DNA of 53,451 nucleotides from contig JADZEY010000093.1 in assembly GCA_020850315.1 (NCBI GenBank), forward strand, positions 1 through 53,451, written 5' to 3'. A model generated the notes under the pieces. It was not told the DNA's origin. It worked only from the letters and a program-made list of their open reading frames with translations, and made no database searches. Below, one piece after another: positions 7,873-16,506 of the stretch. The DNA is from Armatimonadota bacterium. Lineage in GTDB: Bacteria; Bacteroidota; Ignavibacteria; OLB7. Positions within the stretch are counted from its first letter, which is position 1, and each line of letters opens with the position of its first letter. A program made the position numbers and the translations under genes.

Positions 7873-7996
7873 GTTGTGGCAGGCTGCTCCACCAGACCTT
7901 GCCCCCCGCATCCAATTCGCTCGTTCTTCTCACTCCATCTCCCTTCCTCTGCGTAAGTTCCTGCCGAAAACAATTTCACAACCGATTGCTGCCGAT

Positions 7997-10741
7997 ATGC
8001 TTACAACGCTACGATTCCTTCTATCCCTTGCCTTCCTGTTGCTGATCGCTTCCTGCGCTTCCACCGACAAACCAATACCAACCGATGCTGGCCCGGAAAC
8101 CCCACGCGACCGCGCAGCGTGGGAGCTGATGCGGCTTCGCGACCCAGCAACCGGGCGCATCCCAGAAGGGATTTCTGCGCGTGAGTTGGCATTTGCCAAA
8201 ACGTTGCCACAACGCCACGGAAACGCATTCCTGAAAACGCTTGGCGTGCAGCAGTACGGCTGGCAACAACGCGGGCCGTTCAATGTTGGCGGGCGCACCC
8301 GTGCGCTGGCCCTGGACCGGACGGGGGAGGACACCATGTTGGCTGGCGGGGTTTCGGGGGGGATGTGGCGTTCAATCAACGGTGGGGGAAGCTGGACCCG
8401 CGTCACCCGGTTGGATATGCATCCCAGCGTCACCTGCATCCAACAAGACCCACGCCCCGGAAAGGAGCGAACTTGGTACTACGGCACAGGTGAGCTGTAC
8501 GGCAACAGCGCAAGCGATGGCGGCGCCTACTACTACGGCGATGGTGTCTTCAAATCCAACGATAATGGGGTGACGTGGGAGCGGCTGCCGGGGACCGGTT
8601 CCGGCACTCCATCATCATTCGACAACGCCTCCGATTTGGTCTGGAATCTGGCGGTGGATCCCAGCAACCTTGACCAAGATGAAATCTACCTTGCCGTCTA
8701 TGGCGAAATCCGCCGCACGACCAACGGCGGCACCAATTGGCAGCGGGTGCGCGGCGGGATAAATTCTGCGTATGCCACCGATGTTGCTGTTACCGATAGC
8801 GGCATTGTGTATGCCACACTCAGCAGCGATGGTTCGCAGCGGGGAATCTTCCGGTTATCGGGGCAGAAGTGGACGGGAATCACCCCGCCAGGGTGGCCTT
8901 CTACGTACAACCGCATCCGTATTGGAATTGCTCCATCGAACCAAAACATCGTCTATTTCTTGGCGGAAACGCCCGGCGCGGGGGCGTTGGGAAAAAACTT
9001 CCGGGGGGATTCCTCGTGGCAAAGTTTGTGGCGGTACACCTACCTAAGCGATGATGGAACCGGGGCCGGGGGGACGTGGGAAAATTTATCGGCGAACATC
9101 CCGATTTACGGAACCTCCACCGGGGATTTCTTCTCGCAAGGGGGGTACGATCTTCACGTCACGGTGGACCCGCACAACCCCAACCACGTGGTGATTGGCG
9201 GAACCAACCTTTACCGCTCCACCGATGGCTTCACCAGCACAAGCAACTACAAATGGATTGGCGGCTACAAACTCTGGAAGCGCGACAGCACCATTCTGGA
9301 AGATTACCAATATCCCGAACATCACCCCGATCAGCACGCCGCTGTGTTTTCGGCAACGCGCCCCAATGTGCTCTTCACTGCAAGCGATGGCGGCGTGCAC
9401 CGCAGCGATAATTATCTGGCAGATTCGGTGACGTGGACCTCGCTGAACAATGGCTATTTCACCACTCAATTCTACACCGTTGCCATTGACCACGCAACTG
9501 CGGGGAGCAATCTGATGATTGGTGGGTTGCAGGATAACGGATCGTGGGGAACAGCATCGCTTAACTCATCGGCCCCGTGGGTTGAGCGGGGAACCAGCGA
9601 CGGAGCCTACTGCGCAGTGGTGGATGGCGGGCGGGAACTCTATCTAAGCAAGCAGCAAGGGCGGGTCTATCGGGTGCTGTTGGATCAGGATGGAAACGTC
9701 ACCGGTTCCACCCGCGTCGAGCCCGACTCCGCCACCGATTACATGTTCATCAACCCGTTTGTGCTGAATCCTTCCGACCAAAAAATGATGTTCATGGCGG
9801 CTGGCCGCTACCTGTGGCGGAACACGGATCTGACGGCGATTCCGCTCTCCTCAACCCAACGAACAACCATCAACTGGGCAAAGTTGGAGCAGAGCAAAAC
9901 CGACTCAGCATCGGTGGTTTCGGCAATCGGGGTCAGCACCACCGCGCCAGCAAACCGTGTGTGGTATGGGACCAGCCGGGGGAAGCTGTACCGGATAGAT
10001 AACGCCACATCTGGCGACCCACAGCCGGTGAACGTCACCGGGGGTGAGTTCCCCGTCAACGGCTACATCACCGCAATCAACGTGGATCCGATGGATGGGA
10101 ACCGTGCGGTTGCGGTCTTCAGCAACTACAATGTGATGAGCCTGTTCCTAACCACTGATGCGGGCCAGACTTGGACGGCAATCAGCGGTAACTTGGAAGA
10201 ACAATCTGATGGGAAAGGGGCGGGGCCATCGTGCCGTTGGTTTGCGTTCCTTCACCGCCCGAACGGAGTGCTCTGCCTTGTTGCCACAAGCACCGGACTG
10301 TACTCCACCAACAAGCTGGATGGAATGAACACCGTCTGGCACCAGGAAGGGGCCGACGTGATTGGAAACGTAGTGGTGGCAATGATTGACGTTCGCCAAA
10401 GCGACGGCTACGTTGCGGTGGCAACCCACGGCAACGGAATGTTCAGCACCGTGGTGCAAGCCCTGGGCGTTGATGAACCAGCGCAGCCAACCGCGGTGTT
10501 CAGCATCTACCCAAACCCAGCCACCGATCACCTTGTGGTAATGCTTCCGCCAGAACAGCTAACCGAGCAATCGGAGATTACTGTGTACGACCTAACGGGC
10601 CGCGCCGTCACCGAACCAGCCTATCCACCAATCGGCATTGCAACCCACGAAATAGATCTAACAACACTGCCATCCGGAAACTACCTCTGCAGTGTGAAGA
10701 TGGGGGAGAGGAAGATGGTTAGGAGGGTGGTGGTGAGGTGA
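7997..10741 (+). CDS. Secreted beta-propeller protein with T9SS sorting domain, paralogue of 3488-6328
   Basis: A 914-residue paralogue of the protein at 3488. ATG 7997 begins a signal peptide ending in LLLIASCAS, which looks like a lipobox with Cys at residue 17. WELMRLRDPATGRIPEGIS follows. The blades align throughout with the first copy: FNVGGRTRALALDR, SGGMWRSINGGGSWTR, GVFKSNDNGVTWERL, GGTNLYRSTDGF, NNGYFTTQFYTVAIDH, GGLQDNGSWG. The C-terminal T9SS domain has FSIYPNPATDHL, VYDLTGRAVTE, LPSGNYLCSV and ends KMVRRVVVR. A lipobox plus a T9SS domain on one protein is unusual; either the Cys is not lipidated or the two signals act in sequence. The longer open frame from 7721 overlaps the M15-like gene and is rejected as start. 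Confidence 0.85.
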   Translation: MLTTLRFLLSLAFLLLIASCASTDKPIPTDAGPETPRDRAAWELMRLRDPATGRIPEGISARELAFAKTLPQRHGNAFLKTLGVQQYGWQQRGPFNVGGRTRALALDRTGEDTMLAGGVSGGMWRSINGGGSWTRVTRLDMHPSVTCIQQDPRPGKERTWYYGTGELYGNSASDGGAYYYGDGVFKSNDNGVTWERLPGTGSGTPSSFDNASDLVWNLAVDPSNLDQDEIYLAVYGEIRRTTNGGTNWQRVRGGINSAYATDVAVTDSGIVYATLSSDGSQRGIFRLSGQKWTGITPPGWPSTYNRIRIGIAPSNQNIVYFLAETPGAGALGKNFRGDSSWQSLWRYTYLSDDGTGAGGTWENLSANIPIYGTSTGDFFSQGGYDLHVTVDPHNPNHVVIGGTNLYRSTDGFTSTSNYKWIGGYKLWKRDSTILEDYQYPEHHPDQHAAVFSATRPNVLFTASDGGVHRSDNYLADSVTWTSLNNGYFTTQFYTVAIDHATAGSNLMIGGLQDNGSWGTASLNSSAPWVERGTSDGAYCAVVDGGRELYLSKQQGRVYRVLLDQDGNVTGSTRVEPDSATDYMFINPFVLNPSDQKMMFMAAGRYLWRNTDLTAIPLSSTQRTTINWAKLEQSKTDSASVVSAIGVSTTAPANRVWYGTSRGKLYRIDNATSGDPQPVNVTGGEFPVNGYITAINVDPMDGNRAVAVFSNYNVMSLFLTTDAGQTWTAISGNLEEQSDGKGAGPSCRWFAFLHRPNGVLCLVATSTGLYSTNKLDGMNTVWHQEGADVIGNVVVAMIDVRQSDGYVAVATHGNGMFSTVVQALGVDEPAQPTAVFSIYPNPATDHLVVMLPPEQLTEQSEITVYDLTGRAVTEPAYPPIGIATHEIDLTTLPSGNYLCSVKMGERKMVRRVVVR

Positions 10742-10796
10742 ATAGGGGGTAGAATGAGTTCTGTGGGGAGCAACAAGCGTGCAGTGGTCAGTATAA

Positions 10797-11090
10797 ATCG
10801 AACATGTTTTTGCGCGCCGCTTTGCTGGTAAGCAGATTGAGTCGCAGAACCGTTTTATCCAGTATGACCCGCAGGCGTTCTTTGTTGAGTTCGAGATACC
10901 AAACGGGCAAATTACTGGGGTTGCTTCCTACCGCGTTGTGCCAACTGATGCCGCCTCATGCCGGCTAATCAGCAAGATGAATTTTTCGGTGAAAGGGATT
11001 GCTCGGCTTTTTACACCGCTTCTGACCCGCATTATGAAGCGGGATTCAGCAAGGGATGAGCAAACGTTGAAACGGCTTTTGGAGGCGTAA
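10797..11090 (+). pseudogene. SRPBCC/polyketide-cyclase-like gene remnant (5' end missing)
   Basis: A frame without a start codon is open from 10797 (after TAA 10794-10796) to TAA 11088-11090, giving about 97 residues: ARRFAGKQIESQNRFIQY, then FFVEFEIPNGQITGVASYRV, then LFTPLLTRIMKRDSARDEQT and LLEA. Alternating strands ending in a long helix with L-x-x-x-LL at the C-terminus resemble the second half of START/SRPBCC proteins. The front half is missing and the preceding sequence shows nothing coding, so I treat it as a decayed gene. The first CRISPR-like repeat begins 4 nt after its stop. Confidence 0.5.
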
Positions 11091-11093
11091 GGA

Positions 11094-11309
11094 GCCACCC
11101 CCATTCCCGCGTGGACAGAAAGCGATGCGATGAAAGCGATTGAGCGTGACGCGGGCCACCCCCATTCCCGCGTGGACAGAAATCTCGCCGAAGCACATTT
11201 GACCTCTGTCACTACCCCACTCCCATCCCCGCGTAGGCCGAAAATCTTTCACAATAGTTTGGAGTTCAGCCAGAGTGGCCAGCCACCCCATCCCCATGTA
11301 AGCCGAAAA
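11094..11309. CRISPR. Short, decaying orphan CRISPR-like array
   Basis: Two identical 28-nt units lie at 11094-11121 and 11155-11182, each starting GCCACCCCCATTCCC and ending GTGGACAGAAA. A third unit (11216-11243, 6 mismatches) sits at the same 61-nt period. A fourth, more diverged unit (11282-11308, one base deleted) follows after 38 nt. The two regular spacers are 33 nt (11122-11154, 11183-11215) and unrelated in sequence. A 28+33 period is typical of type I-E arrays. Degeneration towards one end is typical of the leader-distal end, which would put the leader at the low-coordinate side. No cas genes are in the window. The period is not a multiple of three, which argues against a protein repeat. 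Confidence 0.6.
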
Positions 11310-11404
11310 CCAGCGATGCCTACGCATTTTCCGCCAAGCCGACCATGCCGAATCCGTGCGAATCGGGTGGTAATACAACAAAATGTTCCCGGCACGGCCA
11401 AATG

Positions 11405-11436
11405 TTTGGCGGCACTACGTTCGGTAGCTAACTTTG
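11405..11436 (+). promoter_or_regulatory. Bacteroidota-type promoter candidate for the ATP synthase operon
   Basis: TTTG (11405-11408), a 20-nt spacer, then TAACTTTG (11429-11436) match exactly the TTTG/TAnnTTTG promoter described in Bacteroidota. Transcription would start near 11442, leaving a leader of about 76 nt before the first small gene at 11518. There is no closer gene on this strand, so it probably drives the atp operon. Confidence 0.5.
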
Positions 11437-11517
11437 CGCCCTTTCTTGTGCGGTGCTTCCGGTTTGCGCTGCGAGCCGGGTAGGAAAGGATCACAGCCGA
11501 AGCCTTGTGAGAGTGCC

Positions 11518-11742
11518 ATGCAGCAACGCCAATCGAACCGCTCAACAATGCAGCAACTTTCCCCATACCTTGGTATGGGGTTTCAGCTTGCGGCGGCAAT
11601 GGCTGCCTTTGGGGCAGCTGGGTGGTGGGCCGATTCAGAATACGGAACCACGCCGTGGTTATTGGTGGTGGGTGTCGTCTTGGGGGCGACGGGCGGGTTA
11701 ATCAGTATGATCCGTACGTCGCTTCGTTCACAAAAGCCGTAA
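11518..11742 (+). CDS. AtpZ/AtpI-family small membrane protein
   Basis: A 74-residue protein at the head of the ATP synthase genes. It has two membrane helices (GMGFQLAAAMAAFGAAGWWA and LLVVGVVLGATGGLISMI) joined by a short polar turn (DSEYGTTPW), the layout of the AtpZ/AtpI family (F0F1-ATPase subunit, putative). Such proteins assist c-ring assembly or carry Mg/Ca in other bacteria. ATG 11518 is chosen because the earlier in-frame start at 11434 would begin inside the predicted promoter. The next gene starts 9 nt after the stop. Confidence 0.75.
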   Translation: MQQRQSNRSTMQQLSPYLGMGFQLAAAMAAFGAAGWWADSEYGTTPWLLVVGVVLGATGGLISMIRTSLRSQKP

Positions 11743-11751
11743 TAACAACGC

Positions 11752-12243
11752 ATGATCCTGCCGCCGGACGTAACGTTCAACAGAATGAAATTCCTGTTTC
11801 TTCGCAACATCCTTCTTATCACACTGCTGTTTGGCATTGTGTTGGCCTATCCAATCTACGGTTGGGTAACGCCAGAAGCATTTAAGGGGATTATTGCCGC
11901 CGGAATCGTGGCATTGGCCAACGTCCTAATCGGCTATCTGATGATGGAGACTGCGCTGGACAAACCAAACCAGCAGTTCCTTTCACTGGTGTTTGGTGGG
12001 ATGGCTATCCGGTTGCTGGCCACGATGGTGGTGCTGTTTATTCTGTTCACTGCCAAGTACCACCAGCTGGCGCTTTCCCTTTCGCTGATGGTGTTCTATG
12101 TGGTGTACATGGTTGCCGAAATTATCTACATCGCACGGGTGATGAGCCGCCGGAAAGTCTCTGTCCCGAATCGTCGCAAGCAACGTTCCAACAATACATC
12201 CTCGCTTCCCCGTTCCATTGCCATTGAATCCGCCAAGAAGTAA
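11752..12243 (+). CDS. ATP synthase-associated membrane protein (AtpI-like)
   Basis: A 163-residue membrane protein with four likely helices: ILLITLLFGIVLAYPIYGWV, GIIAAGIVALANVLIGYL, LVFGGMAIRLLATMVVLFIL and LSLSLMVFYVVYMVAEIIYI. A basic, Ser/Asn-rich tail follows (RRKVSVPNRRKQRSNN). Its place between the AtpZ-like gene and atpB matches the position of AtpI/AtpR-type proteins in other atp operons; sequence alone does not settle which family it is. ATG 11752 or ATG 11785 (MKFLFLRN) could be the start; the second gives a tidier membrane N-terminus. Its stop overlaps the atpB start by one base (TAATG), implying coupled translation. Confidence 0.65.
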   Translation: MILPPDVTFNRMKFLFLRNILLITLLFGIVLAYPIYGWVTPEAFKGIIAAGIVALANVLIGYLMMETALDKPNQQFLSLVFGGMAIRLLATMVVLFILFTAKYHQLALSLSLMVFYVVYMVAEIIYIARVMSRRKVSVPNRRKQRSNNTSSLPRSIAIESAKK

Positions 12244-13370
12244 TGCCTGATACGAACAACCCACACAGCCAGGAAGCTCCACACCAGGAGCAACACAGCG
12301 GAACCACCGATCACGGCACCAGCCACGGCAGCGATCATGCCGCCGGAGCCGAGAACCCGTTCACGGCGGTGCTATCCCATCTTGGTGACCACCGTGAGAT
12401 CACGTTTGGGCATATCCACCTGTTCGATTTGCCGATTATTCTGATTGATGACGGGCTGCATATCTACCCCAGCGTTCATGCAATGGAAGCCAAAGGGGTT
12501 CATGCTCTTGAACATCACCACGTGGTGAATGTGGCAACAAAAAAAGCCCCGGCATTGGATTTCTCTGTCACCAGTTTGGTGTTCTACCAATGGGTGGCGA
12601 TGGCCCTTCTGCTGGCGGTGTTTATCCCCATGGGGCGGAAATACAAGAAGGTTGGGGTGAAACCGCTTGGCGGAATTTTTGCGGCAATGGAGATGCTGAT
12701 TGAATATGTGCGTGATGAGATTGTGACCCCGAACATCGGGAAGGATGGAGCAAAGATGCTTCCGATCTTCCTCACGTTCTTCTTCTTCATCCTGTTTATG
12801 AACTACTTGGGGTTGATACCCGGGGCGCATACCGCAACCGGAAGCATCAACGTCACGGCAGGGTTGTCCATCATCGCCTTCTTCTTGGTGCAGATTGCCT
12901 CCATCAGCAAAATTGGAATCGGCGGCTATCTGAAGCACCTCACTGGCGGAACCCCGGTCTTCTTGTGGCCGATTATGATCCCAGTGGAAATTTTGGGCCT
13001 GTTCACCAAGCCGTTCGCATTGGCTATCCGCTTGTACGCCAACATGGTGGCCGGCCACGTGATTTTGCTTTCGTTGATCGCACTCACCTTCCTTAGCGTC
13101 GCATTTATCCCTGTCTCAGTTGGGTTCTCGCTCTTCATTTACATGCTAGAGTTGTTGGTGGCGTTCTTGCAAGCGTACATCTTCACAACGCTGACCGCAG
13201 TGTTCACCGGCATGGCAATGGCAAGCCACGATCATCACGAGGAGCATGAAGTCCACAGCGACCGCCATGCGACGGTGTCGGATGTGGTGACCGAAATGGC
13301 GACGGGGGATTACGATGACCTTAGCGAAGAACTTCGCAAGCATCAGCCAGCCGGCGCGGCTGCCCACTGA
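12243..13370 (+). CDS. atpB: ATP synthase F0 subunit a
   Basis: Forms the proton half-channels next to the rotating c-ring in the inner membrane. The essential stator arginine lies in LAIRLYANMVAGHVILL, the hallmark of the family. It has five or six hydrophobic helices, for example VFYQWVAMALLLAVFIPM and IFLTFFFFILFMNYLGLIPG. At 375 residues it is longer than the E. coli protein (271). The extra length is a His-rich, polar N-terminus (residues 1-90, including HSQEAPHQEQHSG) and a His/Glu-rich tail after the last helix (SHDHHEEHEVHSDRH). Long, His-rich a subunits also occur in Bacteroidota and Chlorobiota. Start by one-base overlap with the previous stop. Confidence 0.95.
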   Translation: MPDTNNPHSQEAPHQEQHSGTTDHGTSHGSDHAAGAENPFTAVLSHLGDHREITFGHIHLFDLPIILIDDGLHIYPSVHAMEAKGVHALEHHHVVNVATKKAPALDFSVTSLVFYQWVAMALLLAVFIPMGRKYKKVGVKPLGGIFAAMEMLIEYVRDEIVTPNIGKDGAKMLPIFLTFFFFILFMNYLGLIPGAHTATGSINVTAGLSIIAFFLVQIASISKIGIGGYLKHLTGGTPVFLWPIMIPVEILGLFTKPFALAIRLYANMVAGHVILLSLIALTFLSVAFIPVSVGFSLFIYMLELLVAFLQAYIFTTLTAVFTGMAMASHDHHEEHEVHSDRHATVSDVVTEMATGDYDDLSEELRKHQPAGAAAH

Positions 13371-13515
13371 TATTTAACTCTTGGAAACCTTTTTCGTGGG
13401 AAAAGGGCGGTGGTGGGGGGCTGGCATTTGCGTAGTTTCGCACGTCTTTTTCCGAACGGCAGAACATATCTGAACTCATAAACAACTCTCATCAAAACCA
13501 AACGGAGCTTTTCTC
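13371..13515 (+). promoter_or_regulatory. atpB-atpE intergenic region with small hairpin and possible internal promoter
   Basis: This 145-nt gap contains a short hairpin (CCTTTT ... AAAAGG, about 13388-13407) and, downstream, TAGTTTCG (13433-13440). The latter resembles the -7 element in front of uppS (same eight bases at 34885), though no good -33 TTTG is found 19-21 nt upstream. It may hold a secondary promoter that boosts subunit c, or simply processing structures. Confidence 0.3.
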
Positions 13516-13743
13516 ATGGAACCACAGGTAATGGCGTATCTCGGTGCAGGTCTTGGCGCCGGAATGGTTGTCTTTGGTGTCGGAACAGGCATTGGCCGCC
13601 TTGCAGCAGCCGCGCTTGACGCACAGGGCCGCCAGCCGGAAGCCATCGGCGATGTCCGCACAACGATGATTATCGCTGCTGCACTTATCGAAGGTGTGGC
13701 ACTGTTCGCAATGGTTATTTGTATCCTGCTTGCAACCAAGTAA
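13516..13743 (+). CDS. atpE: ATP synthase F0 subunit c
   Basis: The 75-residue proteolipid that forms the rotor ring. Two helices are joined by a polar loop (DAQGRQPEA). Helix 1 carries the glycine ladder G10-x-G12-x-G14-x-G16 needed for tight packing. Helix 2 carries the ion-binding carboxylate E59 in ALIEGVALFAMV. The residues around E59 (Gly-Val rather than Ser-Thr) and lack of the polar partner set of sodium rings suggest proton coupling; this is inference. A strong palindrome follows the gene before atpF. Confidence 0.95.
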   Translation: MEPQVMAYLGAGLGAGMVVFGVGTGIGRLAAAALDAQGRQPEAIGDVRTTMIIAAALIEGVALFAMVICILLATK

Positions 13744-13755
13744 TGCAGGGCCAAT

Positions 13756-13779
13756 CGGGCGGCCAAGCTTGGCCGCCCG
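13756..13779 (+). terminator. GC-rich 12-bp palindrome between atpE and atpF
   Basis: A perfect 24-base palindrome (half-site CGGGCGGCCAAG) begins 13 nt after the atpE stop. T-rich sequence (GATTTTTC, about 13786-13793) follows 6 nt later. In an operon this is likely a partial terminator or a 3' stabiliser that lets the c subunit be made in excess. Confidence 0.55.
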
Positions 13780-13831
13780 TTGGGTGATTTTTCGGCATCT
13801 TCAGTCTGGCTTCCCATCCTAACGCTAAGCA

Positions 13832-14329
13832 ATGAATCCACTTGCAGATATCAATGTAGGTCCTATTCTCTGGACCATCATCAACTTCTTTCTGCTTCTT
13901 GTTCTTCTTCGCATCGTTGCGTGGAAGCCAATCCTGAACGCGCTGCAAACGCGCCAGGACACCATCAACGACGCGCTAAACCGCGCCGAATCTGCCAAGC
14001 AGGAAGCCGACCGCGTGCTTGCTGAAAACCAAAAAGCACTGCGCCAAGCCGAAGCCGAATCGCAGAAAGTGCTGAAGGAAACCCGTGAATACGCCCAGCG
14101 GATTCAATCCGACGCAATGGCCAAAGCACAGGATGACACCAAGAAGCTGATGGAACAAGCGCATCAGGAGATCAACCTCAGCAAGCAGCAGGCGATGAAC
14201 GAACTTCGTACCGAAGTCGCTTCGCTTGCGGTGGGTGCTGCCGAGAGAATCTTGAACGAATCTCTCGATGCCGACCGCCACACACGCCTTGTGAACGACT
14301 ACCTGAAGCAGACAGCCAACCAGAACTAA
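13832..14329 (+). CDS. atpF: ATP synthase F0 subunit b
   Basis: The peripheral-stalk subunit that links F0 to F1. It has 165 residues. A single N-terminal membrane helix (ILWTIINFFLLLVLLRIVAW) is followed by a long charged coiled coil rich in Ala, Glu, Lys and Gln (ALQTRQDTINDALNRAESAK onward). Conserved features are the KPI after the helix and the AERIL near the end. Only one b-type gene is present, implying a homodimer. The next gene, atpH, starts 30 nt downstream. Confidence 0.93.
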   Translation: MNPLADINVGPILWTIINFFLLLVLLRIVAWKPILNALQTRQDTINDALNRAESAKQEADRVLAENQKALRQAEAESQKVLKETREYAQRIQSDAMAKAQDDTKKLMEQAHQEINLSKQQAMNELRTEVASLAVGAAERILNESLDADRHTRLVNDYLKQTANQN

Positions 14330-14359
14330 GTCCGACTTTTTTCTCACCAACGCATCACG

Positions 14360-14908
14360 ATGACGCAGACACGAGCAGCGCAACGATACGCCAAAGCGAT
14401 TCTGGAAATCGCCAAGGAGGAGAAGGCGCAGGAGGCGGTCACCGAAGATTTCAAGACTATCCACGGGGCACTACAGAACTCCCCAGAGCTTCGCCGATTG
14501 CTGGAAACTCCAGTGATTGACGAACGGGTGAAGGAGAGCCTTCTGCTTGAAATTTTTGCGGGGAAAATTGGCGAAATACTGGCACGGTTTATCGGATTGC
14601 TTACCCGCAAGGGGCGTTCGGCGGATCTTGCTTCCATCATCCAAGCATACTTCCATCTGCTTGATGCCGAGCAGAACACTATCAGCGCGATGGTGACCAC
14701 TGCGGCCCCATTAAGCGAGCCACAACAGCGGGAGCTTGAGCAACGGTTATCGGCAATCAGCGGAAAAGCAATCCGCGCCGAATATCAGCTTGATCCGGGG
14801 CTGGTCGGTGGTTTCCGGGCAACCTTTGGCGACACAATGATTGATGCCTCGCTACGGCATCAGCTAAACCGAATGCACGATACCTTGCTGCAAGGCTCGG
14901 TGAACTGA
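14360..14908 (+). CDS. atpH: ATP synthase F1 subunit delta
   Basis: Caps the F1 head and ties it to the b stalk. The 182-residue length is normal. The N-terminus [19 protein letters not shown] and the C-terminal segment [20 protein letters not shown] are family signatures (usual form: P-x-L-x-G-G-x-x-x-x-x-G-D-x-x-x-D-x-S). Followed 50 nt later by atpA. Confidence 0.94.
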
Positions 14909-14958
14909 GTGCGGCAACTGAATCCAGCAACAACTTTCATTTAGTACAGATAACCAGT

Positions 14959-16506
14959 ATGGTTGAAGTTCGTCCCGATGAAGTAACCGCCATCCTGCGC
15001 AAGCAGTTGACTGGCTTCTCAAGTGAGGTGGATGTTTATGACATCGGCACCGTTTTGGAAGTGGGCGACGGTGTGGCGCGTGTCTATGGCCTAACCAACG
15101 TGCTTGCTTCGGAACTTGTCGAGTTCCCGAATGGTGTCACCGGAATGGCGCTGAACCTTGAAGAAGACAACGTTGGTGTGGTGTTGTTCGGCGATGACAA
15201 GCTGATTAAAGAAGGGGACACCGTCAAGCGTACCGGCAAGGTTGCCTCCGTTCCGGTGGGGGAAGCACTGTTGGGGCGTGTGGTCAATCCGTTGGGTGTG
15301 CCACTTGATGGCCGCGGCCCAATCAACGCTGCCAAAACGCTTCCGATTGAACAGAAAGCCCCCGGCGTTATCGCCCGCTATCCCGTCCACGAGCCGTTGC
15401 AGACCGGCATCAAAGCCCTTGATGCAATGGTTCCGATTGGACGTGGCCAGCGTGAGCTTATCATCGGCGACCGCCAAACCGGAAAAACGACTGTGGCGAT
15501 TGATACGATCATCAATCAAAAATATACCCACACCCCAGAAGCAAAAGCACAAGGGATTGACCCGGTGTTCTGCATCTACGTCTGCATTGGTCAGAAAGCA
15601 TCTACCGTTGCAAACGTTGTGCAAATCCTGAAAGACAACGGCGCGATGGAGTACACCACGGTTGTTGTGGCCAGCGCAGCCGATCCCGCACCGCTTCAGT
15701 TTATCGCGCCATACTCCGGTGCGGCAATGGGTGAGTACTTCCGCGACAGCGGCCGCCACGCTTTGGCGGTGTACGACGACTTATCAAAGCAGGCTGCTGC
15801 CTATCGCCAGTTATCGCTGCTGTTGCGCCGCCCACCAGGGCGCGAAGCCTACCCGGGCGACGTGTTCTACCTGCACTCACGTTTGTTGGAACGCGCTGCA
15901 AAACTTGATAAGGAGAACGGCGGGGGATCGCTGACAGCGTTGCCAGTGATTGAAACGCAGGAAAGCGACCCATCGGCCTACATCCCAACCAACGTGATCT
16001 CCATCACTGACGGCCAGATCTATCTGATGCCCAATCTGTTCAATGCAGGCGTGCGTCCGGCAATCAACGTCGGCATCTCGGTCTCGCGTGTGGGGGGAAG
16101 TGCCCAGATTAAGGCGATGAGAAAAGTTTCCGGCACGCTGAAGCTTGACCTTGCGCAGTACCGCGAACTTGAGGCGTTTGCAAAATTTGGTTCCGACCTT
16201 GATAAATCCACCCAGCAGCTCTTGAATCGTGGATCCCGTTTGGTGGAGCTGCTGAAGCAAGGGCAGTTCCAGCCAATTCCGGTGGAAGAGCAGGTTGCTG
16301 CAATTTTTATTGGAACCAGTGGATTCTTGGACAGCATTGCAATTGCTGATGTTCGGCGGTTCGAGCAGGAGTTTATCGCCTACTTGAAGTTGAAAAATCC
16401 TGAATTGCTACCAAGCATTGCACAGAAAAAGGAGTTGACTGCCGAGATCAGCGACGGGCTGAAGGGTGCAGCAACCGAATTCTCCAAGACGTTCGCACGA
16501 AGCTAA
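14959..16506 (+). CDS. atpA: ATP synthase F1 subunit alpha
   Basis: The non-catalytic nucleotide-binding subunit of F1. The 515 residues show the full layout: N-terminal beta-barrel, the P-loop [33 protein letters not shown] (which contributes the arginine finger region further on), the [20 protein letters not shown] signature, and a helical C-terminal domain. [14 protein letters not shown] near the end is typical. The subunit beta gene is not next to it; after atpG the cluster ends. Confidence 0.97.

Follow-up and report, generated by a model that had tools for sequence, protein, structure and literature searches.

The window, i.e., the whole 53,451-nt stretch of DNA considered here, is contig C93 of a genome of 4.24 Mb assembled in 138 contigs (99.84% complete). 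It includes a gap of 776 nt, the same as was delimited in the initial annotation, which runs from the stop codon of a large secreted-protein gene at 10741 to the ATG at 11518, where the ATP synthase genes start. A short series of repeats and spacers is placed here, upstream of the ATP synthase operon (Table 1). As had been described, a broken SRPBCC gene stands directly before it: copy 1 of the repeat starts 3 nt past the SRPBCC stop codon, so that no AT-rich leader is visible beside the first repeat, and no AT-rich stretch was seen directly after copy 4.

Table 1. Features found between the secreted-protein gene and the ATP synthase genes (positions in the window)
Feature	Position	Strand	Remarks
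Segment missing from the same-genus relative	10742..11346		605 nt; the relative has about 46 unrelated nt
SRPBCC (Polyketide_cyc2-like) gene, 3' half	10824..11090	+	natural stop kept; 5' half missing
Repeat copy 1	11094..11121	+	28 nt, GCCACCCCCATTCCCGCGTGGACAGAAA
Spacer 1	11122..11154	+	33 nt
Repeat copy 2	11155..11182	+	28 nt, GCCACCCCCATTCCCGCGTGGACAGAAA, identical to copy 1
Spacer 2	11183..11215	+	33 nt
Repeat copy 3, worn	11216..11243	+	6/28 positions differ from copy 1
Spacer 3	11244..11281	+	38-39 nt
Repeat copy 4, most worn	about 11282..11309	+	8 differences from copy 1, including one 1-nt deletion

The coordinates of the two identical and two worn copies were confirmed, together with the distances of 61, 61 and 65 nt between the repeat cores. 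The copies belong to two classes, (1,2) and (3,4), which form a gradient. Near-identical repeats of a length within 21–48 nt, regular spacing and unique spacers of similar length (33, 33 and 39 nt) correspond to the general definition of CRISPR, and the first two units (28/33) also have the 28–29 nt repeat and 32–33 nt spacer of type I-E. The spacers are indeed unrelated, as was claimed initially, but the length of 33 nt ascribed to them holds for the first two and not for the third.

Such an arrangement is beyond chance. The 28-nt pair is the sole exact direct repeat of at least 16 nt at a distance of 40–100 nt in the 53-kb window, and the 22-nt repeat core was contained in none of 100 shuffles. 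Every pair of repeats is alike above the level of shuffles, and the likeness of spacer to spacer is at that level. A coding repeat is disfavoured by the period of 61 nt, which is not a multiple of three. Elsewhere in the genome the repeat does not occur; thus, the possibility of a unit scattered singly through the genome, named at the outset as a ground for refutation, was not borne out, and a dispersed repeat was rejected. Scanning with up to 3 mismatches gave just two single weak matches among 391 genomes of the class, and the repeat was not found in viral contigs. With a repeat unique in the genome and a geometry equal to that of the host's own 28/33 I-E array, the description of this array as orphan, CRISPR-like, of I-E size and decaying was upheld. 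The Rfam search of the window detected tRNA only.

Comparison of the spacers with phage and plasmid collections, recommended in the initial annotation, gave no credible match for any of the three spacers, the best E values being 3 for phages and 0.2 for plasmids, the latter in a match spanning a repeat–spacer boundary. Viral contigs were covered with exact core and with back-translated patterns, again without a credible match, and spacers 1 and 2 had none elsewhere in the same genome. Most spacers of uncultured hosts are without a match. As the search revealed no protospacer, the acquisition of spacers by this array is putative.

The same-genus comparison was made with one genome, G001 (L011, a Chlorobiota MAG). 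The flanks at 7929–10741 and 11347–16000 are collinear with this relative at 86–87% identity, and the 605-nt segment between them, occupied by the array together with the truncated SRPBCC gene, is missing there. A search of 40 relatives did not recover it either. Its G+C content, 0.53 in the segment as well as in the window, does not single it out. The segment is probably foreign, with loss in the relative as the alternative, one same-genus genome having been compared. The SRPBCC fragment was recognized by the PF10604 profile (positions 63–142 of 142) with an E value of 1.5e-5, slightly under the curated cut-off. No homologue of it was found in the same genome, in 60 relatives, in a 297-genome sample of the phylum or in viral contigs; the best match found, with 52% identity, was to plasmid SRPBCC proteins of Arthrobacter and Paenarthrobacter. 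It may be that this fragment and the array do not come from one source.

No type I-E cas genes or their remnants were matched in the window, and to this extent the first description of the locus as lacking cas genes was right, but it does not apply to the genome. The search for cas3 and cse genes suggested earlier led to the end of contig C1 (L060:1-6072), which carries cas3, cas8e, cas11 and the first part of cas7e. The first three were confirmed by PADLOC models, the proteins encoded on C1 are 76–91% identical to those of the same-genus locus, and the contig breaks off within cas7e. Contig C31 (L071:6758-8547) ends within a 29-copy array of the repeat GGATCATCCCCGCGTGTGCGGGGAACAG, identical among the 27 units listed in full, with 28/33 geometry and one 62-nt step. 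Since the ends of these contigs face each other as expected for an intervening block, C1 and C31 apparently represent one I-E locus interrupted by a gap in the assembly, in which cas7e-cas5-cas6-cas1-cas2 would lie. The host locus is collinear with that of G001. The Pfam Cas1 search of the host genome was negative, and cas1-cas2 were not found in the assembly; the first reading of this result as a cas-less genome was overturned by the Cas7e search. An annotation pipeline could wrongly call the genome, with its locus split in this way, cas1-negative.

Several other features of these loci were observed. In the type I-E operon of G001 (L046:8154-11143), cas7e is tandemly duplicated, and such a duplication could be the cause of the assembly break on C1. 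The second copy is extended at its C terminus by a long series of AT-hook-like RGRPPKDPNAPPKP repeats, a tail that is, to our knowledge, unusual for a Cascade backbone protein. Intergenic ATTTGGCATTCGGCATT-like repeats occur at about 45 places in the host genome, and a stretch of this kind lies between cas1 and cas2 in G001 (L046:13961-14365). Two adjacent identical spacers, CTTGAAGCCAAGCTCGAGCAGTTCCGCCAGCC, in the host I-E array (L071:7092-7184) represent a spacer duplication.

The initial annotation suggested that the locus may be a scar left by the deletion of an earlier CRISPR-Cas region. A truncated gene beside a decayed array and 776 nt without intact genes agree with this idea, but the host I-E locus is situated elsewhere and is collinear with that of the relative, no I-E cas remnant is present in the window, and the relative has nothing at the site, its flanks being joined by about 46 nt. 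Comparison of related genomes, recommended in the initial annotation, showed that the array segment is absent from G001 and was not found in 40 relatives. We regard the scar as very improbable.

The window array resembles the host array on C31 in its 28-nt repeat, 33-nt spacers and 61-nt period, and the core CATCCCCGCGT(G) is common to both. It differs from the latter, which has a hairpin, uniform repeats and paired cas genes, in having four diverging copies and no such hairpin. Its repeat is not that of the cas-linked host array, with which it has only a core of 11–12 nt in common, and the I-E cas operon is not linked to it, being located on other contigs. The host repeat GGATCATCCCCGCGTGTGCGGGGAACAG folds into a hairpin of 7 bp (-14.3 kcal/mol), and the repeat of the same-genus relative, with the same stem, has a fold z of about -3.3 to -4.5 against its own shuffles. 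RNA folding of both strands showed that none of the four window copies forms the I-E palindromic hairpin. Their folding energies range from 0 to -7.2 kcal/mol (-4.0 or weaker on the + strand, -7.2 or weaker on the - strand), the z value for copy 1 is about -0.7, and copies 1 and 3 fold no better than shuffles.

In type I-E systems, Cas6e requires a hairpin in the repeat for crRNA processing. The array is therefore presumably inert in the host cell, where its repeats are without this hairpin and no leader is visible. Since all copies are without the hairpin, the separate decay of each from a normal I-E repeat is not in itself a sufficient explanation. The likeness to type I-E noted earlier is true of the 28/33 geometry, equal to that of the host array, but for a repeat without the hairpin, length alone is insufficient for this label. 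Since both the hairpin and linkage to cas genes were looked for and neither was found, the array should not be classed as type I-E.

The same absences of hairpin, leader, protospacer and adjacent cas genes, along with the 39-nt third spacer and the presence of four copies only, would also suit a non-CRISPR local spaced repeat, for example, a C-rich motif with a role in binding or structure, of which slippage or recombination made further copies and for which the 61-nt period would be coincidental. Tandem duplication would, however, leave similar spacers, and here the spacers are unrelated and the repeats conserved; moreover, the 28/33 geometry is exactly that of the host I-E array, and the genome contains no dispersed copies. 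We consider such an origin rather unlikely.

The identical geometry admits another explanation, namely a neo-CRISPR, in which the host I-E Cas1-Cas2 would have integrated spacers off-target, at a site resembling a repeat, and thereby produced a second array with the host 28/33 ruler and a different repeat. Copies 1 and 2 have 11 of 12 nt, and copy 3 has 11 of 11, in common with the host repeat (CATYCCCGCGTG); the core CATYCCCGCGT is found in these copies and in the host repeat alike. Of 1000 dinucleotide shuffles, 13, 8 and 2 matched the host repeat no less well than did copies 1, 2 and 3, respectively; copy 4 was not above shuffles. Owing to the common core and the identical ruler, off-target formation retains some probability, though a low one. 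Against it, the match in the core is short and C-rich and its occurrences in the several copies are not independent, the unit that was duplicated lies 4 nt out of register with the host repeat, the newest pair, when oriented by the common core, is opposite to the host leader side, cas1-cas2 were not found in the assembly, and the foreign neighbour of the array suggests import. The version in which the insertion site lay behind the foreign gene and the resulting repeat could not be processed is assigned a probability at the lower end of the same small range.

In our opinion, the locus is, somewhat more probably than not, a short orphan CRISPR-like relic, now inert, which shares a probably foreign 605-nt segment with the remaining half of the SRPBCC gene. 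Such an array would have grown by copying of its left-most repeat, the identical copies 1 and 2 being the younger and copies 3 and 4 the older, and would have arrived on a piece of foreign DNA that also carried the broken SRPBCC gene; at this site it would have neither a leader nor cognate cas genes at present.

Orphan and isolated CRISPR arrays, including degenerate ones, are well known (PMC8616872). The window array is similar to them in the absence of adjacent cas genes, the small number of repeats and the signs of degeneration, but differs in that neither a protospacer nor a leader was found for it, nor any cas-linked array homologous to it, so that its derivation from one of the known array types is putative at most. 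An anti-cas role has been described for the orphan I-F CRISPR4 arrays of E. coli (cited in PMC8616872), which are likewise small and belong to a lineage that has a CRISPR type other than theirs. In contrast to them, the window spacers match neither the I-E cas loci of relatives above shuffles nor, convincingly, the host array; an anti-cas role is thus unsupported for lack of matches to those cas loci.

As an orphan relic, the locus would be one more degenerate array without cas genes, an ordinary finding. It would also serve as a caution that a single window or a fragmented assembly can mislead into calling a genome cas-less. If off-target insertion by the host system were true, the array would preserve a record of such integration of spacers from nature and not from the laboratory.
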